From the NCBI GenBank assembly GCA_959347315.1, contig OY365807.1, forward strand, positions 59,883,442 through 59,947,441: a stretch of 64,000 nucleotides of DNA. Reading direction: 5' to 3'. The position numbers and the translations under genes were made by a program. Position 1 is the first letter of the stretch. Each line of letters begins with the position of its first letter. The stretch comes from Bimastos eiseni (lineage: Eukaryota; Annelida; Clitellata; Crassiclitellata; Lumbricidae). Below, piece by piece: positions 12,327-64,000 of the stretch. The notes under the pieces are model-generated. The model did not search any database. It saw only the letters and a program-made list of their open reading frames with translations, and was not told the DNA's origin.

Positions 12327-12335
12327 ATTGAAAAA

Positions 12336-12360
12336 AAATAATAACGATACGATATTATTT
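12336..12360 (-). promoter_or_regulatory. 3'UTR hairpin, candidate reverse-transcriptase recognition element
   Basis: In the element RNA, AAATAATA and TATTATTT form a perfect 8-bp stem around a 9-nt loop (UCGUAUCGU), 26-50 nt after the ORF2 stop. It is followed by a U-rich tract and then CAAUCUAACUAACCC, which leads into the C-strand telomeric repeats. The 3'UTR is only 59 nt, so this is its only visible structure. The same sequence lies at the equivalent place in all units. A role in positioning the RNA 3' end on the telomere is inference. Confidence 0.6.
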
Positions 12361-12385
12361 GTTGAGCACTGGCACAATTTGTTCT

Positions 12386-14551
12386 TCATATCATCTGGCG
12401 CAGGTTGATTCCGTTGGGCTGGCAGGTCATCAGGATTCGACGCCAGCAGGATGCCATGAGTCTCAGTTTGTCGTCGATTCTGGTGGGATGGTTCCTGAAA
12501 GTAGAAAGCTCACCGGCAGTAACTTCTTCTATTGGCGTTATTGACAGATTATTTATTGAGTGATCGGGTAGGTTGAAATGGTTACCTATAGGTGTGTTTG
12601 TGTGATTTAGAATTTCAGATGTGTAATCAATAAGTGTTTCTGATATTTTTATGCGGGTGCTATTGACATATTGTTTGTTACACAGGTTGCATGTAATGAC
12701 AAAAACTACATTTTTGCTATTACAATCCAGTGTTTTAGTTATTTTGTGTTGTCTGCGTGTATATGTGCTTGTGAATTCTTTGGTGACGTTTATGTGTTTG
12801 CAGGCGTTGCACGAGTTTGAGTTGCATTTTTTAGACCCCCCCTGTTTGTTAATATTATTGGTAGTGTTTTTAGTTTTCGGAGGTGCCAAGAGTTCGCCTA
12901 AATTCCTATTCCTCGAAAATGCTGCTATGACCCGATGGTTGTTAGAGTTTTGTTGCTGTTGTAATAGTTTTTTCCATTCGTATACTAGTCTTATTGAGAG
13001 CGGATTGTAAGGTATTATGATTGGTAGTATTTGTTTGTTAGTAGGTGCGTTTCTTAGTTCATATTCAGCCCATATGTTTCGTTTACTTTGTCTAAGTAGT
13101 CTGTGATTATATCCTCGTTGTTTGAGACTGTGAAAGAGTATGTGGCAGGAGTTGTCGTAGTCGATTTTAAATGAAGATAACCTTTTAAACCTTAGTAGTT
13201 GTGATTTAAGAATGCCCGTAAATGTGTGTTTTGGGTGAAATGATGAATGGTGCAGCAGCTGGTGTGTGTCTGTTTCCTTAAAGTATACCTTAGTTTGTAA
13301 TGTTGTCATGCCGTTTTCTGTATGTTTGAATATTGTCGTATCTAAGAAGTTGATTTCCGTGTTGTGGTGTGTAAGAGTGATTGTAATGTCTGGTATTATT
13401 GAGTTAAGGAAGTTTTCATATTGTTTTAGTTCTTCTATTGTACCGGGCCATATGAAAAAAATGTCATCGAGAAATCTAAAGAAGTCAATGGGTTTTATGT
13501 GAAAATCGGTGCAGGCTTGTCTGTCAAATTCTATTAAGTAAATGTTGGCCAGATTAGGAGCGAATGATTTACCCATAGCTGTCCCGAATATCTGTAAGAA
13601 GAAGTTGTGGCAGAAAGAGAAGTCATTGTTTTTCATTGCAATTTCAAGTAGTTCCAATAGCTCTTCGTCAGGTCGTTTATGATCAGGATACTTGGAGAAG
13701 AAGTCCTTGACATTATTGAGGGTGCGGTCAATATTCATGTTTGTGTACAGAGAAGTTATGTCACCTGTTACTAGTATGTGTTGGGCGTTAATTTTGCGGT
13801 TTCTAATTTTTCTAACGAAGTCATATGTATCTTTAATGTATGATGGGTGTTTGTTTGCAAGAGGTTTTAAGAATGAGTCTATGTAATCGCTAATCCTACG
13901 TGATTCGGTGCCACAATCACCTACTATGGGGCGTCCTTCTGGCATGTCTGGGAGTGTCCATTTGTTTATGGGTTTATGTATTTTTGGAAGAAGGTAGAAT
14001 TTTCTGTCGTTATCTGTACTTTTAGCGCTAAGATAGTCATATTGCCTAGTGTTAATGTAGTTTTTTTCAAGGAGGTTGTCTAGAATGTCATTAATTTTCT
14101 GTATGGTTTGCTCTTTAAGAGGCACTTTTATCGGATTATAATACTTGGTATTTTTTAGTTGTCTATCTACTTCTGTAATGTAAGAGGTTTTGTTTATTAC
14201 ACAAACCATGCCGCCCTTATCTGCAGGTTTTATCAGTATGTTTTCATTGTTACGTAGCTTAGTTATGCATTGTTTTTGTGTGTGAGTTATGTTTTCATGT
14301 TTATTTTTAAAATAATATGAATTATTCCTTATTGGGTATTCGTGCAAAATAATTTCTGTAGTTTCCTGTATCTGGGTGATTAGTTGTTCAGCTGCTAATG
14401 ATAAATCTTCGTCTTCAGGTGCCCAGGTGCTCGGGTCCATAAATTGCTTGTCAATTTTATTATGTGTCTGGTTGTCATCGCCAAAGTAATCTCTTAGTTT
14501 AATAAGTCTAATTAACCTGTGTTGTGCTTTTTCTACCTGTGTGATATGCAT
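12386..14551 (-). CDS. ORF2: Penelope-like reverse transcriptase with degenerate GIY-YIG domain (unit 1)
   Basis: 721 codons from the first in-frame ATG. PLE reverse transcriptase landmarks, in order: IKPADKGG (107-114), LPKIHKP (188-194), GRPIVG (206-211), motif A DITSLYTN (264-271), motif B GTAMGKSFAPNLANIYL (323-339), motif C FRFLDDIFF (358-366, catalytic D362 and D363), motif D INFLDTTI (400-407), and the thumb-like block YFKETDTHQLLHHSSFHPKH (423-442). A Cys/His cluster (C576, C581, C584, H586, C610, C621, C624) leads into a GIY-YIG-type domain at about 614-677. HFNLPDHS and IEE are retained there, but the YIG glycine is Asn630, the catalytic Arg position is Thr639 and the following His is Tyr643. 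All catalytic RT residues are present. The frame is open upstream to 14845 with no ATG, and conserved N-terminal PLE sequence lies there, so the ATG start probably does not give the complete protein (see the extension). Confidence 0.95.
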   Translation of the reverse strand: MHITQVEKAQHRLIRLIKLRDYFGDDNQTHNKIDKQFMDPSTWAPEDEDLSLAAEQLITQIQETTEIILHEYPIRNNSYYFKNKHENITHTQKQCITKLRNNENILIKPADKGGMVCVINKTSYITEVDRQLKNTKYYNPIKVPLKEQTIQKINDILDNLLEKNYINTRQYDYLSAKSTDNDRKFYLLPKIHKPINKWTLPDMPEGRPIVGDCGTESRRISDYIDSFLKPLANKHPSYIKDTYDFVRKIRNRKINAQHILVTGDITSLYTNMNIDRTLNNVKDFFSKYPDHKRPDEELLELLEIAMKNNDFSFCHNFFLQIFGTAMGKSFAPNLANIYLIEFDRQACTDFHIKPIDFFRFLDDIFFIWPGTIEELKQYENFLNSIIPDITITLTHHNTEINFLDTTIFKHTENGMTTLQTKVYFKETDTHQLLHHSSFHPKHTFTGILKSQLLRFKRLSSFKIDYDNSCHILFHSLKQRGYNHRLLRQSKRNIWAEYELRNAPTNKQILPIIIPYNPLSIRLVYEWKKLLQQQQNSNNHRVIAAFSRNRNLGELLAPPKTKNTTNNINKQGGSKKCNSNSCNACKHINVTKEFTSTYTRRQHKITKTLDCNSKNVVFVITCNLCNKQYVNSTRIKISETLIDYTSEILNHTNTPIGNHFNLPDHSINNLSITPIEEVTAGELSTFRNHPTRIDDKLRLMASCWRRILMTCQPNGINLRQMI

Positions 14552-14797
14552 TTTGTTGACTGTGGGTATGAATGAGAGTCCCAGGTCCAGTAAGTTAGTT
14601 TCAACTGTATTAAGTGTATATTTGGATAGGTTAAGTGTGTAGTTTGTACGTGCAAATGTTGGGTTAGGGTTAGGGTTAGGGTTAGTATTAGGGTTAGGGT
14701 TAGTATTAGGGTTAGTATAGTCAATAGGGTTTTGTTCTAGTGCCCTAGATTTTGGTGTATTCTTGAATGCGTCTTTGTGTTGAGTTGAGTGTATTAG
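14552..14797 (-). other. N-terminal extension of ORF2, reached by -1 frameshift from ORF1 (unit 1)
   Basis: The ORF2 frame is open upstream of its ATG for 82 codons back to the frameshift site (the stop is at 14846-14848). From N- to C-terminus it encodes a basic linker; about 20 residues of Asn-Pro and Asn-Thr dipeptides translated from C-strand telomeric repeats (plus-strand 14661-14719); and then NLSKYTLN (14632-14609) and LLDLGLSFIPT (14593-14561). The last two resemble the block that begins PLE reverse transcriptases (NLS..TLT...LL.KGL.F.PT), from my knowledge of the family. No in-frame ATG exists, so translation needs frameshifting, splicing or non-AUG initiation. The same arrangement is present in all units. 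Confidence 0.8.
14661..14719 (+). repeat. Internal telomeric repeats between ORF1 and RT (unit 1)
   Basis: Plus strand TTAGGG-type hexamers with TTAGTA variants lie inside the element core, between the ORF1 stop and the RT domain. On the coding strand they read AAC CCT in the ORF2 frame, so they stay open as Asn-Pro; the CCC TAA phase would contain stops. They recur at the same offset in every unit. Confidence 0.95.
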
Positions 14798-15738
14798 TTT
14801 TTTGTGTGTTGTGTTATGTTTTGTAGAATGCGGAGTTGTGTATCCCTAGTGTAGTGTACCTGATCAGGATGTGTGAAGATGTCATGACTAGCCAAAGGTT
14901 TAACGAAGCTAAGAGGGTAAGACTTACGTAACTTAGTGTTAATGCGTGTAAGATTATCGGTCCAAGGCTGTGAGAAGGTTGGATTGATGGATACACCCAC
15001 CACGGTAAGAGGTTCCACAGACTTAGTAGAGCAGGCCTCCAAGAGTAAGTTCATTGCAGGAAGTGTACGAGTAGAAAAGTCGTCGCTCTTGTGGTTGATG
15101 CCCATGGCTACGACTAGTCGTTGGATTTGGCCCATAGGCAGTCCCTTAGCAAGATCAAGAGTATTATGAAAGTTAGCCCCAGAGAAAGATTCTACCTGAA
15201 AGCCAGAGGGGATATCAGTACTGACCAAGTGCTTGAAGTTAGAGTCAGCAATGATAAGGCATTGAGTGTTTGGTTTTATTTGAATCGACCAAGAAGATTT
15301 GTCATGCGGACTGTGTTTATGAATGTATCCAGTGGTTGTGTTGGTGGTGTTAGTTTCGGAGGTTAAGGCGGGAGGAGGAGGAGGAAGCGGAGGAGAAGAA
15401 GAGGTAGGAGAGGTAAGTGAGACAACAGATGTAGAAGGTGCAAAGGATACCCGGGTTTTGGGTGATATGGTTTGTTTCTTGTGTATTGCAGTGTCAGACA
15501 GGCGGAGACGGGTTTTCCTAACAGGAGAGGGCGAGTCTGGAAGGGCGTCCTCATCATCTTCTTCTTCTTCTTCCTGCCCTTCCATCTCAAGGACCGAGAA
15601 GGGGTTGTGTGTATGTGTGTGTGTGGGTGGTGTCCGCTTAAGGCATGGCTTTTTGGCTGGGTTAGGTGGCAAACTGAAACCCTCATGCTCAGGATCGGTA
15701 GGATCAATGGGTATGATCCTACCATGCGTGGTCCCCAC
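14794..15738 (-). CDS. ORF1: acidic/proline-rich N-terminus plus SGNH (GDSL) esterase-like domain (unit 1)
   Basis: Up to 314 codons. An N-terminal region has a Thr-His repeat (about 38-44), an acidic run (E56-D64) and a Pro stretch (P116-P123), probably disordered. From about residue 157 an SGNH-hydrolase pattern follows: block I IIADSN with S166, block II SGAN with G187, block III GINH with N215, block V DQVH with D292 and H295. SGNH/esterase domains occur in ORF1 of some CR1/L2-type LINEs and accompany telomeric Athena PLEs in rotifers; their role in retrotransposition is unclear. The frame is open to 15810. The codon at 15738 is GTG and the first in-frame ATG is codon 52 (15585), so AUG initiation would give 263 residues, still with the whole SGNH domain. 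The stop is directly preceded by a slippery heptamer. Confidence 0.85.
   Translation of the reverse strand: MGTTHGRIIPIDPTDPEHEGFSLPPNPAKKPCLKRTPPTHTHTHNPFSVLEMEGQEEEEEDDEDALPDSPSPVRKTRLRLSDTAIHKKQTISPKTRVSFAPSTSVVSLTSPTSSSPPLPPPPPALTSETNTTNTTTGYIHKHSPHDKSSWSIQIKPNTQCLIIADSNFKHLVSTDIPSGFQVESFSGANFHNTLDLAKGLPMGQIQRLVVAMGINHKSDDFSTRTLPAMNLLLEACSTKSVEPLTVVGVSINPTFSQPWTDNLTRINTKLRKSYPLSFVKPLASHDIFTHPDQVHYTRDTQLRILQNITQHTKN
14797..14803 (-). promoter_or_regulatory. -1 ribosomal frameshift heptamer A AAA AAC before the ORF1 stop (unit 1)
   Basis: In ORF1 phase the coding strand reads ACA AAA AAC TAA, giving X XXY YYZ as A AAA AAC, one of the canonical eukaryotic -1 slip sites (used by MMTV and HTLV-1 gag-pro). 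Slippage enters exactly the frame of ORF2 (CTA ATA CAC ...), which has no stop until the end of the RT. The ORF1 and ORF2 frames overlap between 14845 and 14797. I see no strong hairpin 5-9 nt downstream; a UAGGG/CCCUA pairing (14747-14743 with 14729-14725) starts about 50 nt away, so the stimulator, if any, is unknown. The equivalent site is present in all 13 units. Confidence 0.8.
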
Positions 15739-15812
15739 TACCTTAGCCTCACTTACGACCAGTCGTTTTAGATCTGGTTCAGTAACCTTACTACCTAGCC
15801 TATTCTTGAGCT
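15739..15812 (-). promoter_or_regulatory. 5' leader of the element (unit 1)
   Basis: 74 nt between the distal telomeric repeats and ORF1, without an ATG on the coding strand. It contains GTAAGTGAG (GT at 15756), a good match to a splice-donor consensus. No TATA box was recognised. The telomeric repeats and the 17-18 nt islet further upstream are shared by all units and may be part of the transcript or promoter. Confidence 0.45.
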
Positions 15813-16224
15813 AGGGTTAGGGTTAGGGTTAGGGTTAGGGTTAGGGTTCAAGGTCCAATCTGGTCAGGGTTAGGGTTAGGGTTAGGGTTAGGGTTAGGGT
15901 TAGGGTTAGGGTTAGGGTTAGGGTTAGGGTATAGGGGTTAGGGTTAGGGTTAGGGTTAGGGTTAGGGTTAGGGTTAGGGTTAGGGTTAGGGTTAGGGTAT
16001 AGGGGTTGGGGTTAGGGTTAGGGTTAGGGTTAGGGTTAGGGTTAGGGTTAGGGTTAGGGTTAGGGTTAGGGTTAGGGTATAGGGGTTGGGGTTAGGGTTA
16101 GGGTTAGGGTTAGGGTTAGGGTTAGGGTTAGGGTTAGGGTAGGGTTAGGGTTAGGGTTAGGGTTAGGGTTAGGGTTAGGGTTAGGGTTAGGGTTAGTGTT
16201 AGGGTTAGGGTTAGGGTTAGTTAG
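15813..16224 (+). repeat. Telomeric spacer 1 (412 bp, three TATAGGGG interruptions)
   Basis: TTAGGG repeats with a fixed series of interruptions: an 18-nt islet CAAGGTCCAATCTGGTCA (15849-15866); TATAGGGG at 15930; TATAGGGGTTGGGG at 15998 and 16078; a GGGTAGGG near 16137; TTAGTG near 16195; and TTAGTTAG at the next core. This order is the reference pattern for the later spacers. Number of hexamers between interruptions varies from spacer to spacer. Confidence 0.95.
15849..15866. other. Conserved 17-18 nt non-telomeric islet upstream of each element
   Basis: CAAGGTCCAATCTGGTCA interrupts the telomeric repeats about 37 bp beyond the 5' end of core 1. The same islet is seen beyond every core, five to seven hexamers out. 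It contains a direct GGTC repeat. It may mark the true 5' boundary of the transcript, be a remnant of an older insertion, or bind a factor; nothing in it identifies a known motif. Confidence 0.7.
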
Positions 16225-16283
16225 ATTGAAAAAAAATAATAACGATACGATATTATTTGTTGAGCACTGGCACAATTTGTTCT

Positions 16284-18449
16284 TCATATCATCTGGCGCA
16301 GGTTGATTCCGTTGGGCTGGCAGGTCATCAGGATTCGACGCCAGCAGGATGCCATGAGTCTCAGTTTGTCGTCGATTCTGGTGGGATGGTTCCTGAAAGT
16401 AGAAAGCTCACCGGCAGTAACTTCTTCTATTGGCGTTATTGACAGATTATTTATTGAGTGATCGGGTAGGTTGAAATGGTTACCTATAGGTGTGTTTGTG
16501 TGATTTAGAATTTCAGATGTGTAATCAATAAGTGTTTCTGATATTTTTATGCGGGTGCTATTGACATATTGTTTGTTACACAGGTTGCATGTAATGACAA
16601 AAACTACATTTTTGCTATTACAATCCAGTGTTTTAGTTATTTTGTGTTGTCTGCGTGTATATGTGCTTGTGAATTCTTTGGTGACGTTTATGTGTTTGCA
16701 GGCGTTGCACGAGTTTGAGTTGCATTTTTTAGACCCCCCCTGTTTGTTAATATTATTGGTAGTGTTTTTAGTTTTCGGAGGTGCCAAGAGTTCGCCTAAA
16801 TTCCTATTCCTCGAAAATGCTGCTATGACCCGATGGTTGTTAGAGTTTTGTTGCTGTTGTAATAGTTTTTTCCATTCGTATACTAGTCTTATTGAGAGCG
16901 GATTGTAAGGTATTATGATTGGTAGTATTTGTTTGTTAGTAGGTGCGTTTCTTAGTTCATATTCAGCCCATATGTTTCGTTTACTTTGTCTAAGTAGTCT
17001 GTGATTATATCCTCGTTGTTTGAGACTGTGAAAGAGTATGTGGCAGGAGTTGTCGTAGTCGATTTTAAATGAAGATAACCTTTTAAACCTTAGTAGTTGT
17101 GATTTAAGAATGCCCGTAAATGTGTGTTTTGGGTGAAATGATGAATGGTGCAGCAGCTGGTGTGTGTCTGTTTCCTTAAAGTATACCTTAGTTTGTAATG
17201 TTGTCATGCCGTTTTCTGTATGTTTGAATATTGTCGTATCTAAGAAGTTGATTTCCGTGTTGTGGTGTGTAAGAGTGATTGTAATGTCTGGTATTATTGA
17301 GTTAAGGAAGTTTTCATATTGTTTTAGTTCTTCTATTGTACCGGGCCATATGAAAAAAATGTCATCGAGAAATCTAAAGAAGTCAATGGGTTTTATGTGA
17401 AAATCGGTGCAGGCTTGTCTGTCAAATTCTATTAAGTAAATGTTGGCCAGATTAGGAGCGAATGATTTACCCATAGCTGTCCCGAATATCTGTAAGAAGA
17501 AGTTGTGGCAGAAAGAGAAGTCATTGTTTTTCATTGCAATTTCAAGTAGTTCCAATAGCTCTTCGTCAGGTCGTTTATGATCAGGATACTTGGAGAAGAA
17601 GTCCTTGACATTATTGAGGGTGCGGTCAATATTCATGTTTGTGTACAGAGAAGTTATGTCACCTGTTACTAGTATGTGTTGGGCGTTAATTTTGCGGTTT
17701 CTAATTTTTCTAACGAAGTCATATGTATCTTTAATGTATGATGGGTGTTTGTTTGCAAGAGGTTTTAAGAATGAGTCTATGTAATCGCTAATCCTACGTG
17801 ATTCGGTGCCACAATCACCTACTATGGGGCGTCCTTCTGGCATGTCTGGGAGTGTCCATTTGTTTATGGGTTTATGTATTTTTGGAAGAAGGTAGAATTT
17901 TCTGTCGTTATCTGTACTTTTAGCGCTAAGATAGTCATATTGCCTAGTGTTAATGTAGTTTTTTTCAAGGAGGTTGTCTAGAATGTCATTAATTTTCTGT
18001 ATGGTTTGCTCTTTAAGAGGCACTTTTATCGGATTATAATACTTGGTATTTTTTAGTTGTCTATCTACTTCTGTAATGTAAGAGGTTTTGTTTATTACAC
18101 AAACCATGCCGCCCTTATCTGCAGGTTTTATCAGTATGTTTTCATTGTTACGTAGCTTAGTTATGCATTGTTTTTGTGTGTGAGTTATGTTTTCATGTTT
18201 ATTTTTAAAATAATATGAATTATTCCTTATTGGGTATTCGTGCAAAATAATTTCTGTAGTTTCCTGTATCTGGGTGATTAGTTGTTCAGCTGCTAATGAT
18301 AAATCTTCGTCTTCAGGTGCCCAGGTGCTCGGGTCCATAAATTGCTTGTCAATTTTATTATGTGTCTGGTTGTCATCGCCAAAGTAATCTCTTAGTTTAA
18401 TAAGTCTAATTAACCTGTGTTGTGCTTTTTCTACCTGTGTGATATGCAT
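16284..18449 (-). CDS. ORF2: PLE reverse transcriptase, degenerate GIY-YIG (unit 2)
   Basis: 721 codons, protein apparently identical to unit 1, with the RT catalytic aspartates and the same Asn630/Thr639/Tyr643 substitutions in the endonuclease domain. The -1-frame extension runs from 18695 down to 18450. Confidence 0.95.
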   Translation of the reverse strand: MHITQVEKAQHRLIRLIKLRDYFGDDNQTHNKIDKQFMDPSTWAPEDEDLSLAAEQLITQIQETTEIILHEYPIRNNSYYFKNKHENITHTQKQCITKLRNNENILIKPADKGGMVCVINKTSYITEVDRQLKNTKYYNPIKVPLKEQTIQKINDILDNLLEKNYINTRQYDYLSAKSTDNDRKFYLLPKIHKPINKWTLPDMPEGRPIVGDCGTESRRISDYIDSFLKPLANKHPSYIKDTYDFVRKIRNRKINAQHILVTGDITSLYTNMNIDRTLNNVKDFFSKYPDHKRPDEELLELLEIAMKNNDFSFCHNFFLQIFGTAMGKSFAPNLANIYLIEFDRQACTDFHIKPIDFFRFLDDIFFIWPGTIEELKQYENFLNSIIPDITITLTHHNTEINFLDTTIFKHTENGMTTLQTKVYFKETDTHQLLHHSSFHPKHTFTGILKSQLLRFKRLSSFKIDYDNSCHILFHSLKQRGYNHRLLRQSKRNIWAEYELRNAPTNKQILPIIIPYNPLSIRLVYEWKKLLQQQQNSNNHRVIAAFSRNRNLGELLAPPKTKNTTNNINKQGGSKKCNSNSCNACKHINVTKEFTSTYTRRQHKITKTLDCNSKNVVFVITCNLCNKQYVNSTRIKISETLIDYTSEILNHTNTPIGNHFNLPDHSINNLSITPIEEVTAGELSTFRNHPTRIDDKLRLMASCWRRILMTCQPNGINLRQMI

Positions 18450-18691
18450 TTTGTTGACTGTGGGTATGAATGAGAGTCCCAGGTCCAGTAAGTTAGTTTC
18501 AACTGTATTAAGTGTATATTTGGATAGGTTAAGTGTGTAGTTTGTACGTGCAAATGTTGGGTTAGGGTTAGGGTTAGGGTTAGTATTAGGGTTAGGGTTA
18601 GTATTAGGGTTAGTATAGTCAATAGGGTTTTGTTCTAGTGCCCTAGATTTTGGTGTATTCTTGAATGCGTCTTTGTGTTGAGTTGAGTGTA

Positions 18692-19636
18692 TTAGTTTTT
18701 TGTGTGTTGTGTTATGTTTTGTAGAATGCGGAGTTGTGTATCCCTAGTGTAGTGTACCTGATCAGGATGTGTGAAGATGTCATGACTAGCCAAAGGTTTA
18801 ACGAAGCTAAGAGGGTAAGACTTACGTAACTTAGTGTTAATGCGTGTAAGATTATCGGTCCAAGGCTGTGAGAAGGTTGGATTGATGGATACACCCACCA
18901 CGGTAAGAGGTTCCACAGACTTAGTAGAGCAGGCCTCCAAGAGTAAGTTCATTGCAGGAAGTGTACGAGTAGAAAAGTCGTCGCTCTTGTGGTTGATGCC
19001 CATGGCTACGACTAGTCGTTGGATTTGGCCCATAGGCAGTCCCTTAGCAAGATCAAGAGTATTATGAAAGTTAGCCCCAGAGAAAGATTCTACCTGAAAG
19101 CCAGAGGGGATATCAGTACTGACCAAGTGCTTGAAGTTAGAGTCAGCAATGATAAGGCATTGAGTGTTTGGTTTTATTTGAATCGACCAAGAAGATTTGT
19201 CATGCGGACTGTGTTTATGAATGTATCCAGTGGTTGTGTTGGTGGTGTTAGTTTCGGAGGTTAAGGCGGGAGGAGGAGGAGGAAGCGGAGGAGAAGAAGA
19301 GGTAGGAGAGGTAAGTGAGACAACAGATGTAGAAGGTGCAAAGGATACCCGGGTTTTGGGTGATATGGTTTGTTTCTTGTGTATTGCAGTGTCAGACAGG
19401 CGGAGACGGGTTTTCCTAACAGGAGAGGGCGAGTCTGGAAGGGCGTCCTCATCATCTTCTTCTTCTTCTTCCTGCCCTTCCATCTCAAGGACCGAGAAGG
19501 GGTTGTGTGTATGTGTGTGTGTGGGTGGTGTCCGCTTAAGGCATGGCTTTTTGGCTGGGTTAGGTGGCAAACTGAAACCCTCATGCTCAGGATCGGTAGG
19601 ATCAATGGGTATGATCCTACCATGCGTGGTCCCCAC
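18692..19636 (-). CDS. ORF1: SGNH-esterase-like (unit 2)
   Basis: Protein apparently identical to unit 1 ORF1. First in-frame ATG at 19483; slip heptamer A AAA AAC at 18695-18701, directly before the stop. Confidence 0.85.
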   Translation of the reverse strand: MGTTHGRIIPIDPTDPEHEGFSLPPNPAKKPCLKRTPPTHTHTHNPFSVLEMEGQEEEEEDDEDALPDSPSPVRKTRLRLSDTAIHKKQTISPKTRVSFAPSTSVVSLTSPTSSSPPLPPPPPALTSETNTTNTTTGYIHKHSPHDKSSWSIQIKPNTQCLIIADSNFKHLVSTDIPSGFQVESFSGANFHNTLDLAKGLPMGQIQRLVVAMGINHKSDDFSTRTLPAMNLLLEACSTKSVEPLTVVGVSINPTFSQPWTDNLTRINTKLRKSYPLSFVKPLASHDIFTHPDQVHYTRDTQLRILQNITQHTKN

Positions 19637-19710
19637 TACCTTAGCCTCACTTACGACCAGTCGTTTTAGATCTGGTTCAGTAACCTTACTACCTAGCCTA
19701 TTCTTGAGCT

Positions 19711-20110
19711 AGGGTTAGGGTTAGGGTTAGGGTTAGGGTTAGGGTTAGGGTTCAAGGTCCAATCTGGTCAGGGTTAGGGTTAGGGTTAGGGTTAGGGTTA
19801 GGGTTAGGGTTAGGGTTAGGGTATAGGGGTTAGGGTTAGGGTTAGGGTTAGGGTTAGGGTTAGGGTTAGGGTTAGGGTTAGGGTTAGGGTTAGGGTATAG
19901 GGGTTGGGGTTAGGGTTAGGGTTAGGGTTAGGGTTAGGGTTAGGGTTAGGGTTAGGGTTAGGGTATAGGGGTTGGGGTTAGGGTTAGGGTTAGGGTTAGG
20001 GTTAGGGTTAGGGTTAGGGTTAGGGTAGGGTTAGGGTTAGGGTTAGGGTTAGGGTTAGGGTTAGGGTTAGGGTTAGGGTTAGTGTTAGGGTTAGGGTTAG
20101 GGTTAGTTAG
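19711..20110 (+). repeat. Telomeric spacer 2 (400 bp, three TATAGGGG)
   Basis: The shortest spacer. It has the islet and all interruptions of spacer 1 in the same order (TATAGGGG near 19821, 19896 and 19963), differing by whole hexamers. Confidence 0.95.
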
Positions 20111-20169
20111 ATTGAAAAAAAATAATAACGATACGATATTATTTGTTGAGCACTGGCACAATTTGTTCT

Positions 20170-22335: not shown

Positions 22336-22577
22336 TTTGTTGACTGTGGGTATGAATGAGAGTCCCAGGTCCAGTAAGTTAGTTTCAACTGTATTAAGTG
22401 TATATTTGGATAGGTTAAGTGTGTAGTTTGTACGTGCAAATGTTGGGTTAGGGTTAGGGTTAGGGTTAGTATTAGGGTTAGGGTTAGTATTAGGGTTAGT
22501 ATAGTCAATAGGGTTTTGTTCTAGTGCCCTAGATTTTGGTGTATTCTTGAATGCGTCTTTGTGTTGAGTTGAGTGTA

Positions 22578-23522: not shown

Positions 23523-23596
23523 TACCTTAGCCTCACTTACGACCAGTCGTTTTAGATCTGGTTCAGTAACCTTACTACCTAGCCTATTCTTGAGCT

Positions 23597-24020: not shown

Positions 24021-24079
24021 ATTGAAAAAAAATAATAACGATACGATATTATTTGTTGAGCACTGGCACAATTTGTTCT

Positions 24080-27930: not shown

Positions 27931-27989
27931 ATTGAAAAAAAATAATAACGATACGATATTATTTGTTGAGCACTGGCACAATTTGTTCT

Positions 27990-51507: not shown

Positions 51508-51566
51508 ATTGAAAAAAAATAATAACGATACGATATTATTTGTTGAGCACTGGCACAATTTGTTCT

Positions 51567-53732: not shown

Positions 53733-53974
53733 TTTGTTGACTGTGGGTATGAATGAGAGTCCCAGGTCCAGTAAGTTAGTTTCAACTGTATTAAGTGTAT
53801 ATTTGGATAGGTTAAGTGTGTAGTTTGTACGTGCAAATGTTGGGTTAGGGTTAGGGTTAGGGTTAGTATTAGGGTTAGGGTTAGTATTAGGGTTAGTATA
53901 GTCAATAGGGTTTTGTTCTAGTGCCCTAGATTTTGGTGTATTCTTGAATGCGTCTTTGTGTTGAGTTGAGTGTA

Positions 53975-54919: not shown

Positions 54920-54993
54920 TACCTTAGCCTCACTTACGACCAGTCGTTTTAGATCTGGTTCAGTAACCTTACTACCTAGCCTATTCTTGAGCT

Positions 54994-55622
54994 AGGGTTA
55001 GGGTTAGGGTTAGGGTTAGGGTTAGGGTTCAAGGTCCAATCTGGTCAGGGTTAGGGTTAGGGTTAGGGTTAGGGTTAGGGTTAGGGTTAGGGTTAGGGTA
55101 TAGGGGTTAGGGTTAGGGTTAGGGTTAGGGTTAGGGTTAGGGTTAGGGTTAGGGTTAGGGTTAGGGTTAGGGTTAGGGTTAGGGTTAGGGTTAGGGTTAG
55201 GGTTAGGGTTAGGGTTAGGGTTAGGGTTAGGGTTAGGGTTAGGGTTAGGGTTAGGGTTAGGGTTAGGGTTAGGGTTAGGGTTAGGGTTAGGGTTAGGGTT
55301 AGGGTTAGGGTTAGGGTTAGGGTTAGGGTTAGGGTTAGGGTTAGGGTTAGGGTTAGGGTTAGGGTTAGGGTTAGGGTTAGGGTTAGGGTTAGGGTTAGGG
55401 TTAGGGTTAGGGTTAGGGTTAGGGTTAGGGTTAGGGTTAGGGTTAGGGTTAGGGTTAGGGTTAGGGTTAGGGTTAGGGTTAGGGTTAGGGTTAGGGTTAG
55501 GGTTAGGGTTAGGGTTAGTTAGGGTTAGGGTTAGGGTTAGGGTTAGGGTTAGGGTTAGGGTTAGGGTTAGGGTTAGGGTTAGGGTTAGTGTTAGGGTTAG
55601 GGTTAGGGTTAGGGTTAGTTAG
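54994..55622 (+). repeat. Telomeric spacer 11 (629 bp, long perfect TTAGGG run)
   Basis: The longest internal spacer. After the islet and a single TATAGGGG (near 55098) it holds about 410 bp of uninterrupted TTAGGG up to TTAGTTAGGG near 55517. The second TATAGGGG and the GGGTAGGG are missing. A perfect run this long looks freshly synthesised by telomerase or copied from a terminal tract. Confidence 0.95.
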
Positions 55623-55681
55623 ATTGAAAAAAAATAATAACGATACGATATTATTTGTTGAGCACTGGCACAATTTGTTCT

Positions 55682-57847
55682 TCATATCATCTGGCGCAGG
55701 TTGATTCCGTTGGGCTGGCAGGTCATCAGGATTCGACGCCAGCAGGATGCCATGAGTCTCAGTTTGTCGTCGATTCTGGTGGGATGGTTCCTGAAAGTAG
55801 AAAGCTCACCGGCAGTAACTTCTTCTATTGGCGTTATTGACAGATTATTTATTGAGTGATCGGGTAGGTTGAAATGGTTACCTATAGGTGTGTTTGTGTG
55901 ATTTAGAATTTCAGATGTGTAATCAATAAGTGTTTCTGATATTTTTATGCGGGTGCTATTGACATATTGTTTGTTACACAGGTTGCATGTAATGACAAAA
56001 ACTACATTTTTGCTATTACAATCCAGTGTTTTAGTTATTTTGTGTTGTCTGCGTGTATATGTGCTTGTGAATTCTTTGGTGACGTTTATGTGTTTGCAGG
56101 CGTTGCACGAGTTTGAGTTGCATTTTTTAGACCCCCCCTGTTTGTTAATATTATTGGTAGTGTTTTTAGTTTTCGGAGGTGCCAAGAGTTCGCCTAAATT
56201 CCTATTCCTCGAAAATGCTGCTATGACCCGATGGTTGTTAGAGTTTTGTTGCTGTTGTAATAGTTTTTTCCATTCGTATACTAGTCTTATTGAGAGCGGA
56301 TTGTAAGGTATTATGATTGGTAGTATTTGTTTGTTAGTAGGTGCGTTTCTTAGTTCATATTCAGCCCATATGTTTCGTTTACTTTGTCTAAGTAGTCTGT
56401 GATTATATCCTCGTTGTTTGAGACTGTGAAAGAGTATGTGGCAGGAGTTGTCGTAGTCGATTTTAAATGAAGATAACCTTTTAAACCTTAGTAGTTGTGA
56501 TTTAAGAATGCCCGTAAATGTGTGTTTTGGGTGAAATGATGAATGGTGCAGCAGCTGGTGTGTGTCTGTTTCCTTAAAGTATACCTTAGTTTGTAATGTT
56601 GTCATGCCGTTTTCTGTATGTTTGAATATTGTCGTATCTAAGAAGTTGATTTCCGTGTTGTGGTGTGTAAGAGTGATTGTAATGTCTGGTATTATTGAGT
56701 TAAGGAAGTTTTCATATTGTTTTAGTTCTTCTATTGTACCGGGCCATATGAAAAAAATGTCATCGAGAAATCTAAAGAAGTCAATGGGTTTTATGTGAAA
56801 ATCGGTGCAGGCTTGTCTGTCAAATTCTATTAAGTAAATGTTGGCCAGATTAGGAGCGAATGATTTACCCATAGCTGTCCCGAATATCTGTAAGAAGAAG
56901 TTGTGGCAGAAAGAGAAGTCATTGTTTTTCATTGCAATTTCAAGTAGTTCCAATAGCTCTTCGTCAGGTCGTTTATGATCAGGATACTTGGAGAAGAAGT
57001 CCTTGACATTATTGAGGGTGCGGTCAATATTCATGTTTGTGTACAGAGAAGTTATGTCACCTGTTACTAGTATGTGTTGGGCGTTAATTTTGCGGTTTCT
57101 AATTTTTCTAACGAAGTCATATGTATCTTTAATGTATGATGGGTGTTTGTTTGCAAGAGGTTTTAAGAATGAGTCTATGTAATCGCTAATCCTACGTGAT
57201 TCGGTGCCACAATCACCTACTATGGGGCGTCCTTCTGGCATGTCTGGGAGTGTCCATTTGTTTATGGGTTTATGTATTTTTGGAAGAAGGTAGAATTTTC
57301 TGTCGTTATCTGTACTTTTAGCGCTAAGATAGTCATATTGCCTAGTGTTAATGTAGTTTTTTTCAAGGAGGTTGTCTAGAATGTCATTAATTTTCTGTAT
57401 GGTTTGCTCTTTAAGAGGCACTTTTATCGGATTATAATACTTGGTATTTTTTAGTTGTCTATCTACTTCTGTAATGTAAGAGGTTTTGTTTATTACACAA
57501 ACCATGCCGCCCTTATCTGCAGGTTTTATCAGTATGTTTTCATTGTTACGTAGCTTAGTTATGCATTGTTTTTGTGTGTGAGTTATGTTTTCATGTTTAT
57601 TTTTAAAATAATATGAATTATTCCTTATTGGGTATTCGTGCAAAATAATTTCTGTAGTTTCCTGTATCTGGGTGATTAGTTGTTCAGCTGCTAATGATAA
57701 ATCTTCGTCTTCAGGTGCCCAGGTGCTCGGGTCCATAAATTGCTTGTCAATTTTATTATGTGTCTGGTTGTCATCGCCAAAGTAATCTCTTAGTTTAATA
57801 AGTCTAATTAACCTGTGTTGTGCTTTTTCTACCTGTGTGATATGCAT
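55682..57847 (-). CDS. ORF2: PLE reverse transcriptase, degenerate GIY-YIG (unit 12)
   Basis: Intact 721-codon copy. Extension in the -1 frame from 58093 to 57848. Confidence 0.95.
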   Translation of the reverse strand: MHITQVEKAQHRLIRLIKLRDYFGDDNQTHNKIDKQFMDPSTWAPEDEDLSLAAEQLITQIQETTEIILHEYPIRNNSYYFKNKHENITHTQKQCITKLRNNENILIKPADKGGMVCVINKTSYITEVDRQLKNTKYYNPIKVPLKEQTIQKINDILDNLLEKNYINTRQYDYLSAKSTDNDRKFYLLPKIHKPINKWTLPDMPEGRPIVGDCGTESRRISDYIDSFLKPLANKHPSYIKDTYDFVRKIRNRKINAQHILVTGDITSLYTNMNIDRTLNNVKDFFSKYPDHKRPDEELLELLEIAMKNNDFSFCHNFFLQIFGTAMGKSFAPNLANIYLIEFDRQACTDFHIKPIDFFRFLDDIFFIWPGTIEELKQYENFLNSIIPDITITLTHHNTEINFLDTTIFKHTENGMTTLQTKVYFKETDTHQLLHHSSFHPKHTFTGILKSQLLRFKRLSSFKIDYDNSCHILFHSLKQRGYNHRLLRQSKRNIWAEYELRNAPTNKQILPIIIPYNPLSIRLVYEWKKLLQQQQNSNNHRVIAAFSRNRNLGELLAPPKTKNTTNNINKQGGSKKCNSNSCNACKHINVTKEFTSTYTRRQHKITKTLDCNSKNVVFVITCNLCNKQYVNSTRIKISETLIDYTSEILNHTNTPIGNHFNLPDHSINNLSITPIEEVTAGELSTFRNHPTRIDDKLRLMASCWRRILMTCQPNGINLRQMI

Positions 57848-58089
57848 TTTGTTGACTGTGGGTATGAATGAGAGTCCCAGGTCCAGTAAGTTAGTTTCAA
57901 CTGTATTAAGTGTATATTTGGATAGGTTAAGTGTGTAGTTTGTACGTGCAAATGTTGGGTTAGGGTTAGGGTTAGGGTTAGTATTAGGGTTAGGGTTAGT
58001 ATTAGGGTTAGTATAGTCAATAGGGTTTTGTTCTAGTGCCCTAGATTTTGGTGTATTCTTGAATGCGTCTTTGTGTTGAGTTGAGTGTA

Positions 58090-59034
58090 TTAGTTTTTTG
58101 TGTGTTGTGTTATGTTTTGTAGAATGCGGAGTTGTGTATCCCTAGTGTAGTGTACCTGATCAGGATGTGTGAAGATGTCATGACTAGCCAAAGGTTTAAC
58201 GAAGCTAAGAGGGTAAGACTTACGTAACTTAGTGTTAATGCGTGTAAGATTATCGGTCCAAGGCTGTGAGAAGGTTGGATTGATGGATACACCCACCACG
58301 GTAAGAGGTTCCACAGACTTAGTAGAGCAGGCCTCCAAGAGTAAGTTCATTGCAGGAAGTGTACGAGTAGAAAAGTCGTCGCTCTTGTGGTTGATGCCCA
58401 TGGCTACGACTAGTCGTTGGATTTGGCCCATAGGCAGTCCCTTAGCAAGATCAAGAGTATTATGAAAGTTAGCCCCAGAGAAAGATTCTACCTGAAAGCC
58501 AGAGGGGATATCAGTACTGACCAAGTGCTTGAAGTTAGAGTCAGCAATGATAAGGCATTGAGTGTTTGGTTTTATTTGAATCGACCAAGAAGATTTGTCA
58601 TGCGGACTGTGTTTATGAATGTATCCAGTGGTTGTGTTGGTGGTGTTAGTTTCGGAGGTTAAGGCGGGAGGAGGAGGAGGAAGCGGAGGAGAAGAAGAGG
58701 TAGGAGAGGTAAGTGAGACAACAGATGTAGAAGGTGCAAAGGATACCCGGGTTTTGGGTGATATGGTTTGTTTCTTGTGTATTGCAGTGTCAGACAGGCG
58801 GAGACGGGTTTTCCTAACAGGAGAGGGCGAGTCTGGAAGGGCGTCCTCATCATCTTCTTCTTCTTCTTCCTGCCCTTCCATCTCAAGGACCGAGAAGGGG
58901 TTGTGTGTATGTGTGTGTGTGGGTGGTGTCCGCTTAAGGCATGGCTTTTTGGCTGGGTTAGGTGGCAAACTGAAACCCTCATGCTCAGGATCGGTAGGAT
59001 CAATGGGTATGATCCTACCATGCGTGGTCCCCAC
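58090..59034 (-). CDS. ORF1: SGNH-esterase-like (unit 12)
   Basis: Intact copy. Slip heptamer at 58093-58099; first in-frame ATG at 58881. Confidence 0.85.
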   Translation of the reverse strand: MGTTHGRIIPIDPTDPEHEGFSLPPNPAKKPCLKRTPPTHTHTHNPFSVLEMEGQEEEEEDDEDALPDSPSPVRKTRLRLSDTAIHKKQTISPKTRVSFAPSTSVVSLTSPTSSSPPLPPPPPALTSETNTTNTTTGYIHKHSPHDKSSWSIQIKPNTQCLIIADSNFKHLVSTDIPSGFQVESFSGANFHNTLDLAKGLPMGQIQRLVVAMGINHKSDDFSTRTLPAMNLLLEACSTKSVEPLTVVGVSINPTFSQPWTDNLTRINTKLRKSYPLSFVKPLASHDIFTHPDQVHYTRDTQLRILQNITQHTKN

Positions 59035-59108
59035 TACCTTAGCCTCACTTACGACCAGTCGTTTTAGATCTGGTTCAGTAACCTTACTACCTAGCCTATT
59101 CTTGAGCT

Positions 59109-59546
59109 AGGGTTAGGGTTAGGGTTAGGGTTAGGGTTAGGGTTCAAGGTCCAATCTGGTCAGGGTTAGGGTTAGGGTTAGGGTTAGGGTTAGGGTTAGG
59201 GTTAGGGTTAGGGTATAGGGGTTAGGGTTAGGGTTAGGGTTAGGGTTAGGGTTAGGGTTAGGGTTAGGGTTAGGGTTAGGGTTAGGGTATAGGGGTTGGG
59301 GTTAGGGTTAGGGTTAGGGTTAGGGTTAGGGTTAGGGTTAGGGTTAGGGTAGGGTTAGGGTTAGGGTTAGGGTTAGGGTTAGGGTTAGGGTTAGGGTTAG
59401 GGTTAGGGTTAGGGTTAGGGTTAGGGTTAGGGTTAGGGTTAGGGTTAGTTAGGGTTAGGGTTAGGGTTAGGGTTAGGGTTAGGGTTAGGGTTAGGGTTAG
59501 GGTTAGGGTTAGGGTTAGTGTTAGGGTTAGGGTTAGGGTTAGTTAG
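59109..59546 (+). repeat. Telomeric spacer 12 (438 bp, two TATAGGGG plus TTAGTTAGGG)
   Basis: TATAGGGG near 59214 and 59288, GGGTAGGG near 59349, TTAGTTAGGG near 59447, as in spacer 10. Confidence 0.95.
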
Positions 59547-59605
59547 ATTGAAAAAAAATAATAACGATACGATATTATTTGTTGAGCACTGGCACAATTT
59601 GTTCT

Positions 59606-61771
59606 TCATATCATCTGGCGCAGGTTGATTCCGTTGGGCTGGCAGGTCATCAGGATTCGACGCCAGCAGGATGCCATGAGTCTCAGTTTGTCGTCGATTC
59701 TGGTGGGATGGTTCCTGAAAGTAGAAAGCTCACCGGCAGTAACTTCTTCTATTGGCGTTATTGACAGATTATTTATTGAGTGATCGGGTAGGTTGAAATG
59801 GTTACCTATAGGTGTGTTTGTGTGATTTAGAATTTCAGATGTGTAATCAATAAGTGTTTCTGATATTTTTATGCGGGTGCTATTGACATATTGTTTGTTA
59901 CACAGGTTGCATGTAATGACAAAAACTACATTTTTGCTATTACAATCCAGTGTTTTAGTTATTTTGTGTTGTCTGCGTGTATATGTGCTTGTGAATTCTT
60001 TGGTGACGTTTATGTGTTTGCAGGCGTTGCACGAGTTTGAGTTGCATTTTTTAGACCCCCCCTGTTTGTTAATATTATTGGTAGTGTTTTTAGTTTTCGG
60101 AGGTGCCAAGAGTTCGCCTAAATTCCTATTCCTCGAAAATGCTGCTATGACCCGATGGTTGTTAGAGTTTTGTTGCTGTTGTAATAGTTTTTTCCATTCG
60201 TATACTAGTCTTATTGAGAGCGGATTGTAAGGTATTATGATTGGTAGTATTTGTTTGTTAGTAGGTGCGTTTCTTAGTTCATATTCAGCCCATATGTTTC
60301 GTTTACTTTGTCTAAGTAGTCTGTGATTATATCCTCGTTGTTTGAGACTGTGAAAGAGTATGTGGCAGGAGTTGTCGTAGTCGATTTTAAATGAAGATAA
60401 CCTTTTAAACCTTAGTAGTTGTGATTTAAGAATGCCCGTAAATGTGTGTTTTGGGTGAAATGATGAATGGTGCAGCAGCTGGTGTGTGTCTGTTTCCTTA
60501 AAGTATACCTTAGTTTGTAATGTTGTCATGCCGTTTTCTGTATGTTTGAATATTGTCGTATCTAAGAAGTTGATTTCCGTGTTGTGGTGTGTAAGAGTGA
60601 TTGTAATGTCTGGTATTATTGAGTTAAGGAAGTTTTCATATTGTTTTAGTTCTTCTATTGTACCGGGCCATATGAAAAAAATGTCATCGAGAAATCTAAA
60701 GAAGTCAATGGGTTTTATGTGAAAATCGGTGCAGGCTTGTCTGTCAAATTCTATTAAGTAAATGTTGGCCAGATTAGGAGCGAATGATTTACCCATAGCT
60801 GTCCCGAATATCTGTAAGAAGAAGTTGTGGCAGAAAGAGAAGTCATTGTTTTTCATTGCAATTTCAAGTAGTTCCAATAGCTCTTCGTCAGGTCGTTTAT
60901 GATCAGGATACTTGGAGAAGAAGTCCTTGACATTATTGAGGGTGCGGTCAATATTCATGTTTGTGTACAGAGAAGTTATGTCACCTGTTACTAGTATGTG
61001 TTGGGCGTTAATTTTGCGGTTTCTAATTTTTCTAACGAAGTCATATGTATCTTTAATGTATGATGGGTGTTTGTTTGCAAGAGGTTTTAAGAATGAGTCT
61101 ATGTAATCGCTAATCCTACGTGATTCGGTGCCACAATCACCTACTATGGGGCGTCCTTCTGGCATGTCTGGGAGTGTCCATTTGTTTATGGGTTTATGTA
61201 TTTTTGGAAGAAGGTAGAATTTTCTGTCGTTATCTGTACTTTTAGCGCTAAGATAGTCATATTGCCTAGTGTTAATGTAGTTTTTTTCAAGGAGGTTGTC
61301 TAGAATGTCATTAATTTTCTGTATGGTTTGCTCTTTAAGAGGCACTTTTATCGGATTATAATACTTGGTATTTTTTAGTTGTCTATCTACTTCTGTAATG
61401 TAAGAGGTTTTGTTTATTACACAAACCATGCCGCCCTTATCTGCAGGTTTTATCAGTATGTTTTCATTGTTACGTAGCTTAGTTATGCATTGTTTTTGTG
61501 TGTGAGTTATGTTTTCATGTTTATTTTTAAAATAATATGAATTATTCCTTATTGGGTATTCGTGCAAAATAATTTCTGTAGTTTCCTGTATCTGGGTGAT
61601 TAGTTGTTCAGCTGCTAATGATAAATCTTCGTCTTCAGGTGCCCAGGTGCTCGGGTCCATAAATTGCTTGTCAATTTTATTATGTGTCTGGTTGTCATCG
61701 CCAAAGTAATCTCTTAGTTTAATAAGTCTAATTAACCTGTGTTGTGCTTTTTCTACCTGTGTGATATGCAT
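59606..61771 (-). CDS. ORF2: PLE reverse transcriptase, degenerate GIY-YIG (unit 13)
   Basis: Intact 721-codon copy. Extension in the -1 frame from 62017 to 61772. Confidence 0.95.
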   Translation of the reverse strand: MHITQVEKAQHRLIRLIKLRDYFGDDNQTHNKIDKQFMDPSTWAPEDEDLSLAAEQLITQIQETTEIILHEYPIRNNSYYFKNKHENITHTQKQCITKLRNNENILIKPADKGGMVCVINKTSYITEVDRQLKNTKYYNPIKVPLKEQTIQKINDILDNLLEKNYINTRQYDYLSAKSTDNDRKFYLLPKIHKPINKWTLPDMPEGRPIVGDCGTESRRISDYIDSFLKPLANKHPSYIKDTYDFVRKIRNRKINAQHILVTGDITSLYTNMNIDRTLNNVKDFFSKYPDHKRPDEELLELLEIAMKNNDFSFCHNFFLQIFGTAMGKSFAPNLANIYLIEFDRQACTDFHIKPIDFFRFLDDIFFIWPGTIEELKQYENFLNSIIPDITITLTHHNTEINFLDTTIFKHTENGMTTLQTKVYFKETDTHQLLHHSSFHPKHTFTGILKSQLLRFKRLSSFKIDYDNSCHILFHSLKQRGYNHRLLRQSKRNIWAEYELRNAPTNKQILPIIIPYNPLSIRLVYEWKKLLQQQQNSNNHRVIAAFSRNRNLGELLAPPKTKNTTNNINKQGGSKKCNSNSCNACKHINVTKEFTSTYTRRQHKITKTLDCNSKNVVFVITCNLCNKQYVNSTRIKISETLIDYTSEILNHTNTPIGNHFNLPDHSINNLSITPIEEVTAGELSTFRNHPTRIDDKLRLMASCWRRILMTCQPNGINLRQMI

Positions 61772-62013
61772 TTTGTTGACTGTGGGTATGAATGAGAGTC
61801 CCAGGTCCAGTAAGTTAGTTTCAACTGTATTAAGTGTATATTTGGATAGGTTAAGTGTGTAGTTTGTACGTGCAAATGTTGGGTTAGGGTTAGGGTTAGG
61901 GTTAGTATTAGGGTTAGGGTTAGTATTAGGGTTAGTATAGTCAATAGGGTTTTGTTCTAGTGCCCTAGATTTTGGTGTATTCTTGAATGCGTCTTTGTGT
62001 TGAGTTGAGTGTA

Positions 62014-62958
62014 TTAGTTTTTTGTGTGTTGTGTTATGTTTTGTAGAATGCGGAGTTGTGTATCCCTAGTGTAGTGTACCTGATCAGGATGTGTGAAGAT
62101 GTCATGACTAGCCAAAGGTTTAACGAAGCTAAGAGGGTAAGACTTACGTAACTTAGTGTTAATGCGTGTAAGATTATCGGTCCAAGGCTGTGAGAAGGTT
62201 GGATTGATGGATACACCCACCACGGTAAGAGGTTCCACAGACTTAGTAGAGCAGGCCTCCAAGAGTAAGTTCATTGCAGGAAGTGTACGAGTAGAAAAGT
62301 CGTCGCTCTTGTGGTTGATGCCCATGGCTACGACTAGTCGTTGGATTTGGCCCATAGGCAGTCCCTTAGCAAGATCAAGAGTATTATGAAAGTTAGCCCC
62401 AGAGAAAGATTCTACCTGAAAGCCAGAGGGGATATCAGTACTGACCAAGTGCTTGAAGTTAGAGTCAGCAATGATAAGGCATTGAGTGTTTGGTTTTATT
62501 TGAATCGACCAAGAAGATTTGTCATGCGGACTGTGTTTATGAATGTATCCAGTGGTTGTGTTGGTGGTGTTAGTTTCGGAGGTTAAGGCGGGAGGAGGAG
62601 GAGGAAGCGGAGGAGAAGAAGAGGTAGGAGAGGTAAGTGAGACAACAGATGTAGAAGGTGCAAAGGATACCCGGGTTTTGGGTGATATGGTTTGTTTCTT
62701 GTGTATTGCAGTGTCAGACAGGCGGAGACGGGTTTTCCTAACAGGAGAGGGCGAGTCTGGAAGGGCGTCCTCATCATCTTCTTCTTCTTCTTCCTGCCCT
62801 TCCATCTCAAGGACCGAGAAGGGGTTGTGTGTATGTGTGTGTGTGGGTGGTGTCCGCTTAAGGCATGGCTTTTTGGCTGGGTTAGGTGGCAAACTGAAAC
62901 CCTCATGCTCAGGATCGGTAGGATCAATGGGTATGATCCTACCATGCGTGGTCCCCAC
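62014..62958 (-). CDS. ORF1: SGNH-esterase-like (unit 13)
   Basis: Intact copy. Slip heptamer checked by eye at 62017-62023; first in-frame ATG at 62805. Confidence 0.85.
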   Translation of the reverse strand: MGTTHGRIIPIDPTDPEHEGFSLPPNPAKKPCLKRTPPTHTHTHNPFSVLEMEGQEEEEEDDEDALPDSPSPVRKTRLRLSDTAIHKKQTISPKTRVSFAPSTSVVSLTSPTSSSPPLPPPPPALTSETNTTNTTTGYIHKHSPHDKSSWSIQIKPNTQCLIIADSNFKHLVSTDIPSGFQVESFSGANFHNTLDLAKGLPMGQIQRLVVAMGINHKSDDFSTRTLPAMNLLLEACSTKSVEPLTVVGVSINPTFSQPWTDNLTRINTKLRKSYPLSFVKPLASHDIFTHPDQVHYTRDTQLRILQNITQHTKN

Positions 62959-63032
62959 TACCTTAGCCTCACTTACGACCAGTCGTTTTAGATCTGGTTC
63001 AGTAACCTTACTACCTAGCCTATTCTTGAGCT

Positions 63033-64000
63033 AGGGTTAGGGTTAGGGTTAGGGTTAGGGTTAGGGTTCAAGGTCCAATCTGGTCAGGGTTAGGGTTAGG
63101 GTTAGGGTTAGGGTTAGGGTTAGGGTTAGGGTTAGGGTATAGGGGTTAGGGTTAGGGTTAGGGTTAGGGTTAGGGTTAGGGTTAGGGTTAGGGTTAGGGT
63201 TAGGGTTAGGGTTAGGGTTAGGGTATAGGGGTTGGGGTTAGGGTTAGGGTTAGGGTTAGGGTTAGGGTTAGGGTTAGGGTTAGGGTTAGGGTTAGGGTAT
63301 AGGGGTTGGGGTTAGGGTTAGGGTTAGGGTTAGGGTTAGGGTTAGGGTTAGGGTTAGGGTTAGGGTTAGTTAGGGTTAGGGTTAGGGTTAGGGTTAGGGT
63401 TAGGGTTAGGGTTAGGGTTAGGGTTAGGGTTAGGGTTAGGGTTAGGGTTAGGGTTAGGGTTAGGGTTAGGGTTAGGGTTAGGGTTAGGGTTAGGGTTAGG
63501 GTTAGGGTTAGGGTTAGGGTTAGGGTTAGGGTTAGGGTTAGGGTTAGGGTTAGGGTTAGGGTTAGGGTTAGGGTTAGGGTTAGGGTTAGGGTTAGGGTTA
63601 GGGTTAGGGTTAGGGTTAGGGTTAGGGTTAGGGTTAGGGTTAGGGTTAGGGTTAGGGTTAGGGTTAGGGTTAGGGTTAGGGTTAGGGTTAGGGTTAGGGT
63701 TAGGGTTAGGGTTAGGGTTAGGGTTAGGGTTAGGGTTAGGGTTAGGGTTAGGGTTAGGGTTAGGGTTAGGGTTAGGGTTAGGGTTAGGGTTAGGGTTAGG
63801 GTTAGGGTTAGGGTTAGGGTTAGGGTTAGGGTTAGGGTTAGGGTTAGGGTTAGGGTTAGGGTTAGGGTTAGGGTTAGGGTTAGGGTTAGGGTTAGGGTTA
63901 GGGTTAGGGTTAGGGTTAGGGTTAGGGTTAGGGTTAGGGTTAGGGTTAGGGTTAGGGTTAGGGTTAGGGTTAGGGTTAGGGTTAGGGTTAGGGTTAGGGT
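63033..64000 (+). repeat. Terminal telomeric tract, (TTAGGG)n to the window edge
   Basis: It has the islet near 63069, TATAGGGG near 63137, 63225 and 63299, and TTAGTTAGGG at 63366-63375. From 63370 to 64000 the hexamer is perfect, about 105 copies. The G-strand reads 5'->3' towards the edge, as at a right-hand chromosome end. Whether the contig ends here cannot be seen. Confidence 0.97.

Follow-up and report, generated by a model that had tools for sequence, protein, structure and literature searches.

How did thirteen identical copies of a Penelope-like element (PLE) come to stand head to tail between telomere repeats at a chromosome end of an animal that keeps TTAGGG? The question is raised by the right end of contig C2 of Bimastos eiseni, and we approached it from the last 64,000 nucleotides of this contig (hereafter the window, i.e., the whole stretch of DNA that was analysed), whose final base is the final base of C2 (59,947,441). 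Reading-frame and repeat comparison across the 64-kb window showed that thirteen minus-strand units in head-to-tail arrangement fill positions 12306-63068, each with two long frames of 819 codons (ORF2) and 338 codons (ORF1 remnant). The cores have 0 differences over 3,495 bp, the stretch identical in all 13 units amounts to 3,543 bp, and the interior of the array is free of assembly gaps; the thirteen head-to-tail copies put forward in the earlier note are therefore present in the assembly, as is the terminal TTAGGG tract, since the array ends in 105 perfect repeats running up to the end of the contig. A 22-base string taken from the tracts occurs 13 times in the window, whereas 100 shuffles gave it a mean count of 0.00. 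The position of the array on C2 rests on scaffolding, because a 200-N gap (11290-11489) separates the array contig from the remainder of C2 and because this contig has only about 0.5 kb, mostly of low complexity, ahead of its first TTAGGG tract. Short interstitial TTAGGG runs were also seen in the subtelomere at 9300-9316 and at 11105-11125, the latter adjoining a relic-like PLE 3′ end. The features of the window are as follows.

11105..11165, minus strand: relic-like PLE 3′ end adjoining TTAGGG on the proximal side of the gap, judged from its pattern alone
11290..11489, no strand: scaffold gap of 200 N, a run of N in the sequence
11983..12322, plus strand: tract ahead of unit 1, TTAGGG with a long TTGGGG run, unlike the other tracts; possible founder telomere
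12306..15848, minus strand: unit 1, identical stretch, a few flanking telomere repeats included
16204..19746, minus strand: unit 2, frames and identical stretch
20090..23632, minus strand: unit 3, frames and identical stretch
24000..27542, minus strand: unit 4, frames and identical stretch
27910..31452, minus strand: unit 5, frames and identical stretch
31957..35499, minus strand: unit 6, frames and identical stretch
35869..39411, minus strand: unit 7, frames and identical stretch
39767..43309, minus strand: unit 8, frames and identical stretch
43671..47213, minus strand: unit 9, frames and identical stretch
47563..51105, minus strand: unit 10, frames and identical stretch
51487..55029, minus strand: unit 11, frames and identical stretch
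55602..59144, minus strand: unit 12, frames and identical stretch
59526..63068, minus strand: unit 13, frames and identical stretch
59540..59599, minus strand: 3′ end of unit 13, AATTGTGCC block, stem-loop, T run and CTAA leading into telomere repeats
59606..62065, minus strand: ORF2 of unit 13, 819 codons from stop to stop, RT and decayed GIY-YIG domain
62014..63030, minus strand: ORF1 remnant of unit 13, 338 codons, 5′ side cut off
63032..64000, plus strand: terminal tract, the last part being 105 perfect TTAGGG repeats that reach the contig end

TTAGGG had been said to flank each unit; tracts do follow every unit, but they are not plain repeat. All thirteen carry an identical 23-base insert and a TATAGGGG string at matching places, and beyond these their interruptions sort into two classes while run lengths vary. 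Ten of the twelve internal tracts are distinct (tract 3 equals tract 4, and tract 10 equals tract 12); tracts 5 and 11 are longer than the others, tract 11 having lost part of its interruptions and carrying 68 perfect repeats instead. A TTAGTG string stands directly before each unit, unit 1 included, and the tract before unit 1, which differs from the rest, may be the founder telomere. Similarity between neighbours among the 12 internal tracts does not exceed chance (permutation order test, p = 0.27), so that block copying of neighbouring units was left unsupported by this test.

The element and its relatives at chromosome ends

Of 8,000 candidates scored against ORF2, at least 2,554 proteins match it at E ≤ 0.001. 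Identity is 75-60% for the ten best, over 91-94% of the length of ORF2, and Pfam calls GIY-YIG in 16 of 21 aligned members, the window's own ORF2 not being among them. These matches agree with the assignment to PLEs in the earlier note. In canonical PLEs the RT likewise precedes a GIY-YIG domain (PMC11167929). No relatives were confirmed in viral contigs. As for ORF1, neither Pfam nor PDB yielded a credible match; its conserved DSN, GIN, and DxVHYT blocks (residues 185-320 of P0002) are reminiscent of a fold of SGNH/GDSL type, which neither database supports.

The host assembly (660 Mb, 118 contigs of which 17 are chromosome-size) was searched with ORF2 and with an endonuclease-bearing relative, a pair of queries that may miss diverged dispersed copies. 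ORF2 gave 59 matches (the best 55 of 1,361 first-look candidates scored) and the relative 60 (the best 58 of 1,075), mostly the same end-located copies among the matches scored. Merging yields at least 61 copies, 44 of which are found no more than 100 kb from one of 14 chromosome ends, and among the matches listed all 44 have their 3′ end inwards; ten others form an array on C13, six are internal and one sits on a small contig. The core is hence telomere-adjacent rather than mainly internal among the matches scored, as had been expected. Two places count against the reading that we favour below: the ten-copy array at 137-182 kb of C13 faces opposite to the end-located copies, and C11 left (locus L020) holds PLE pieces in reversed orientation. 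No TTAGGG tract is found in the 10 kb read at the starts of contigs C13 and C11, and we suspect that both places are inverted scaffold pieces. By identity to ORF2, the copies fall into subfamilies A (mostly 89-100%), B (65%), C (61%), and D (54%). Other arrays each keep a constant spacing of their own: the copies at C2 left, which share a truncation, repeat every 2.86 kb, those at C9 right every 5.8 kb, and those on C13 about every 5.4 and 4.6 kb. With respect to the start of ORF2, its relatives begin with MNLS (e.g., P0003); in the window frame this M is replaced by L, and the first 98 residues contain no other M. The M is kept in subfamilies B and C and is I in D. Telomere-like repeats also occur inside the units near the ORF2 start (61881-61935, and at the same place in other units), where they read as an (NP)n stretch in the ORF2 frame.

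The earlier note had described the cores as full-length, a description that has to be abandoned. In all 13 units, one common 5′ truncation inside ORF1 is joined straight to telomere repeats, and at C6 left and C17 right ORF1 runs on past the point where the window units turn into repeats, the C17 right element extending 1,634 bp further, up to its own TTAGGG tract. Six ORF1 homologues of 552-658 aa likewise extend roughly 200-310 residues further N-terminally than the window remnant. We inspected in part the 34 ends of the 17 chromosome-size contigs (10 kb at left ends, 3 kb at right ends, 64 kb at C2 right); many have no terminal tract or N only. Where a tract border could be read, window included, eight of nine abut either a PLE or a 1.6-kb non-coding element: long terminal tracts meet truncated PLE coding sequence directly at C2, C5, C7, and C8 left and the non-coding element at C3 right, C10 left, and C12 left, the border at C16 left adjoining sequence of no recognised kind. 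This 1.6-kb element, a partner of the PLEs with the same 3′ end, is tandem at ends of C12, C9, C15, C10, and C3 and was also met at loci L021, L024, and L030. Its best copies are 98-100% identical across the C12, C9, and C15 ends, with 88-97% identity at C10 and 87-98% at C3, while interior pieces are mostly more diverged (69-94%).

Six distinct 3′ ends have in common the AATTGTGCC block, a stem-loop whose sequence differs among them, and a tail that resembles telomere repeats. All 32 matches to this 3′ motif in the window and fetched loci (13 of them window units, and many belonging to the same arrays) are accompanied by TTAGG no more than 90 bases away and show the polarity expected; three or more copies are present in 20 of the 32, and the other 12, with only two short TTTAGG-like repeats, count against our favoured reading. 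Rfam detected no hammerhead ribozyme in one unit (E ≤ 10) or in 17 loci (gathering score). By eye, a string near 8960-9000 of locus L018 recalls the hammerhead core, and Rfam gives none there at gathering score. The telomerase RNA-binding domain has a single above-cut-off match in the assembly, at C3:25308357-25308728 on the minus strand, within an uninterrupted frame of 1,301 codons; together with the TTAGGG tracts at contig ends, it upholds the view that the animal keeps TTAGGG. That the host is an animal is borne out by 96 matches to Wnt exons.

Decay and loss of the endonuclease

The GIY-YIG domain can be aligned over its full length, in the RT frame, in subfamilies A, B, and C, and is absent from D, whose frame ends in its own stop. 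In A, B, and C the catalytic R and E are replaced, residue labels that follow what we take to be the I-TevI numbering. The earlier note had likened the element to endonuclease-deficient PLEs; in the sense of the known clades that lack the endonuclease this is not supported, the domain being still there. Among 61 proteins (ORF2 and its 60 best matches), 42 keep both residues, three (ORF2, P0003, and P0013) lost both and 16 are without the domain, the natural ends of these 16 being deduced from similar C-termini, so that some may be fragments. The glycine changed in the published G19A mutant is also replaced in A, B, and C; in Poseidon, this mutant does not cleave DNA (PMC11167929).

A tree built on the RT only (70 rows: 43 intact, 22 lacking, 5 decayed; midpoint root, quick method) places the five decayed proteins in one group (SH-aLRT 90), and these five, all 22 lacking the domain, and 13 intact proteins in a 40-row set (SH-aLRT 99). 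Four state changes are required on this tree, and fewer are forced by the well-supported branches alone (intact 2, absent 1, decayed 1). Relatives outside the telomeric group keep the endonuclease, and the nearest listed kin of the group include endonuclease-bearing PLEs. The persistence of a GIY-YIG domain with altered catalytic residues, together with nearest kin that carry the endonuclease, makes the loss look secondary. The endonuclease/RT divergence ratio has a median of 2.03 in 10 decayed pairs and 1.42 in 36 intact pairs, pairs that are not independent of one another; it was used in place of dN/dS between subfamilies, which we discarded for saturation of RT synonymous sites. Among copies of subfamily A, RT dN/dS is 0.21 and 0.14, with few differences in the 0.21 pair. 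As judged from these sequence comparisons, the RT is conserved while the endonuclease decays or goes. The decayed domain may still bind nucleic acid, given that it retains its cysteines.

Origin of the array among known telomeric systems

With a probability of roughly 0.6, we favour a scenario of end-primed insertion by a telomere-specialised PLE lineage, healing by telomerase and, after that, multiplication of one healed unit chiefly by recombination. The lineage would derive from endonuclease-bearing PLEs, its endonuclease now being dead or missing, and would inhabit chromosome ends in a host that has retained both TTAGGG and a telomerase gene. The RNA of the lineage is predicted to end in the conserved block, the stem-loop, and telomere-complementary repeats, and could thus pair with the 3′ G-overhang, which, to judge from the anatomy of the copies, would prime reverse transcription and leave each copy with its 3′ end towards the centromere. 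Incomplete copying or erosion of the end would then truncate the 5′ side, and telomerase would cap it with TTAGGG; the junctions are seen, and the enzymology is what we suppose. One truncated, healed copy with its interrupted tract might have grown to thirteen through recombination between TTAGGG tracts, with break-induced replication, D-loop or circle copying as candidate routes, and the run lengths of the tracts could have been altered by the register of invasion or by slippage. Copying of one healed unit at the DNA level appears to be the best explanation because one truncation, one insert, and 0 core differences are shared by all 13 units. A tandem block with identical borders between telomere tracts, as expected of ALT-type amplification (TALT, Y′, MoTeR), is found both in the window array and in that of C2 left.

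An unlikely, though not negligible, alternative is that the units were added singly by retrotransposition of a read-through RNA spanning from the distal to the proximal tract, in the manner of HeT-A, so that each unit brought its own tract and telomerase added repeats in between. The orientation of the units fits such serial addition, the TTAGTG ahead of every unit, even the first, could be the tail of the RNA, and the extra length of tracts 5 and 11, the perfect run in tract 11, and the lack of any excess similarity between neighbouring tracts speak for it. It would nevertheless demand that reverse transcription copied 3.5 kb faultlessly 12 times over and, with the same truncation and insert each time, a constant RNA start within the repeats, all from units that miss the 5′ part of ORF1. 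Much less probable is that these are ordinary subtelomeric repeats, an old captured PLE having been spread among ends by recombination without any insertion preference. Exchange between ends is clear, as seen in the near-identity (~98-100%) of the 1.6-kb element at the C12, C9, and C15 ends, yet four subfamilies at 54-100% identity to ORF2 have location and polarity in common, the PLE 3′ ends themselves adjoin TTAGG repeats, the RT is conserved though the endonuclease is lost, and most of the copies scored with the endonuclease-bearing query were again the end-located ones. That the number thirteen is an assembly artefact, with too many or too few near-identical units, we consider the least probable of all: the cores are identical and the array contig is joined via a 200-N gap, yet ten distinct tracts out of twelve provide an assembler with differences to go by, the interior is gap-free, and arrays exist at other chromosome ends too.

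The favoured scenario of insertion, healing, and amplification can be set beside known systems. Bdelloid rotifers harbour end-attached PLEs lacking the endonuclease, which carry telomeric tails at the 3′ end, are truncated at the 5′ end, and form head-to-tail arrays (PMC6431247, PMC5537684). The present elements resemble these Athena and Terminon elements in their PLE RT, their link to ends, a 3′ end running into telomere-complementary repeats, 5′ truncation by telomeric repeats, and head-to-tail or interspersed arrays (PMC6431247, PMC5537684); the end-linked position with the 3′ end inwards, abutting telomere repeats, was found here with the exceptions of C13 and C11. They differ in that the Athena/Terminon RT ORF is reported without endonuclease, whereas here a decayed GIY-YIG persists in A-C and the nearest kin are intact, in that Terminons have a hammerhead ribozyme at their 3′ end (PMC6431247) and none was found here by Rfam, and in that the telomere repeats here are TTAGGG, unlike in the Athena/Terminon case. 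Poseidon of Anolis has the same order of RT and C-terminal GIY-YIG and tandem copies; canonical PLEs of its kind nick AT-rich DNA, and the G19A glycine is replaced in A, B, and C here (PMC11167929). In the blast fungus, truncation-specific telomeric elements are multiplied by break-induced replication, and identical tracts arise by D-loop or circle copying (PMC7367193). These MoTeR arrays likewise have TTAGGG-type tracts of varying length between units, but the elements are fungal and not PLEs, and recombination was watched there while here it is deduced (PMC7367193). When telomerase is deleted in C. elegans, TALT blocks bordered by telomeric sequence are amplified in tandem at chromosome ends, a similar multiplication of a telomere-flanked block (PMC4595603); the present animal, by contrast, has a telomerase gene, and what is multiplied in it is a retroelement. 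HeT-A, TART, and TAHRE of Drosophila are also polarised retroelements at chromosome ends, although of the non-LTR class and in a host without telomerase (PMC5537684). Among the open-licence papers surveyed, we met no telomeric PLE group with endonuclease-bearing nearest kin and a domain decaying in place.

Taken together, these findings suggest that telomerase, retroelements, and recombination jointly shape the ends of these chromosomes. It is tempting to go further, tentatively and at somewhat less than even odds, and to suppose that a PLE clade dispensed with its endonuclease more than once, a primer being available at chromosome ends, that truncated, healed copies serve as natural ALT templates in a telomerase-bearing animal, and that three systems, namely telomerase, the attachment of retroelements, and recombination, maintain the ends at the same time, while a non-coding partner makes use of the 3′ signal of the PLEs. 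A common ancestry has been proposed for telomerase and the RTs of PLEs (PMC3846280). Intact, decaying, and deleted endonucleases within one tree make the switch to end-primed insertion testable, including the order of events, i.e., whether the endonuclease was lost before or after the telomeric tail was acquired at the 3′ end, and a wild animal with a telomerase gene offers a setting for studying ALT-like amplification of retroelements.
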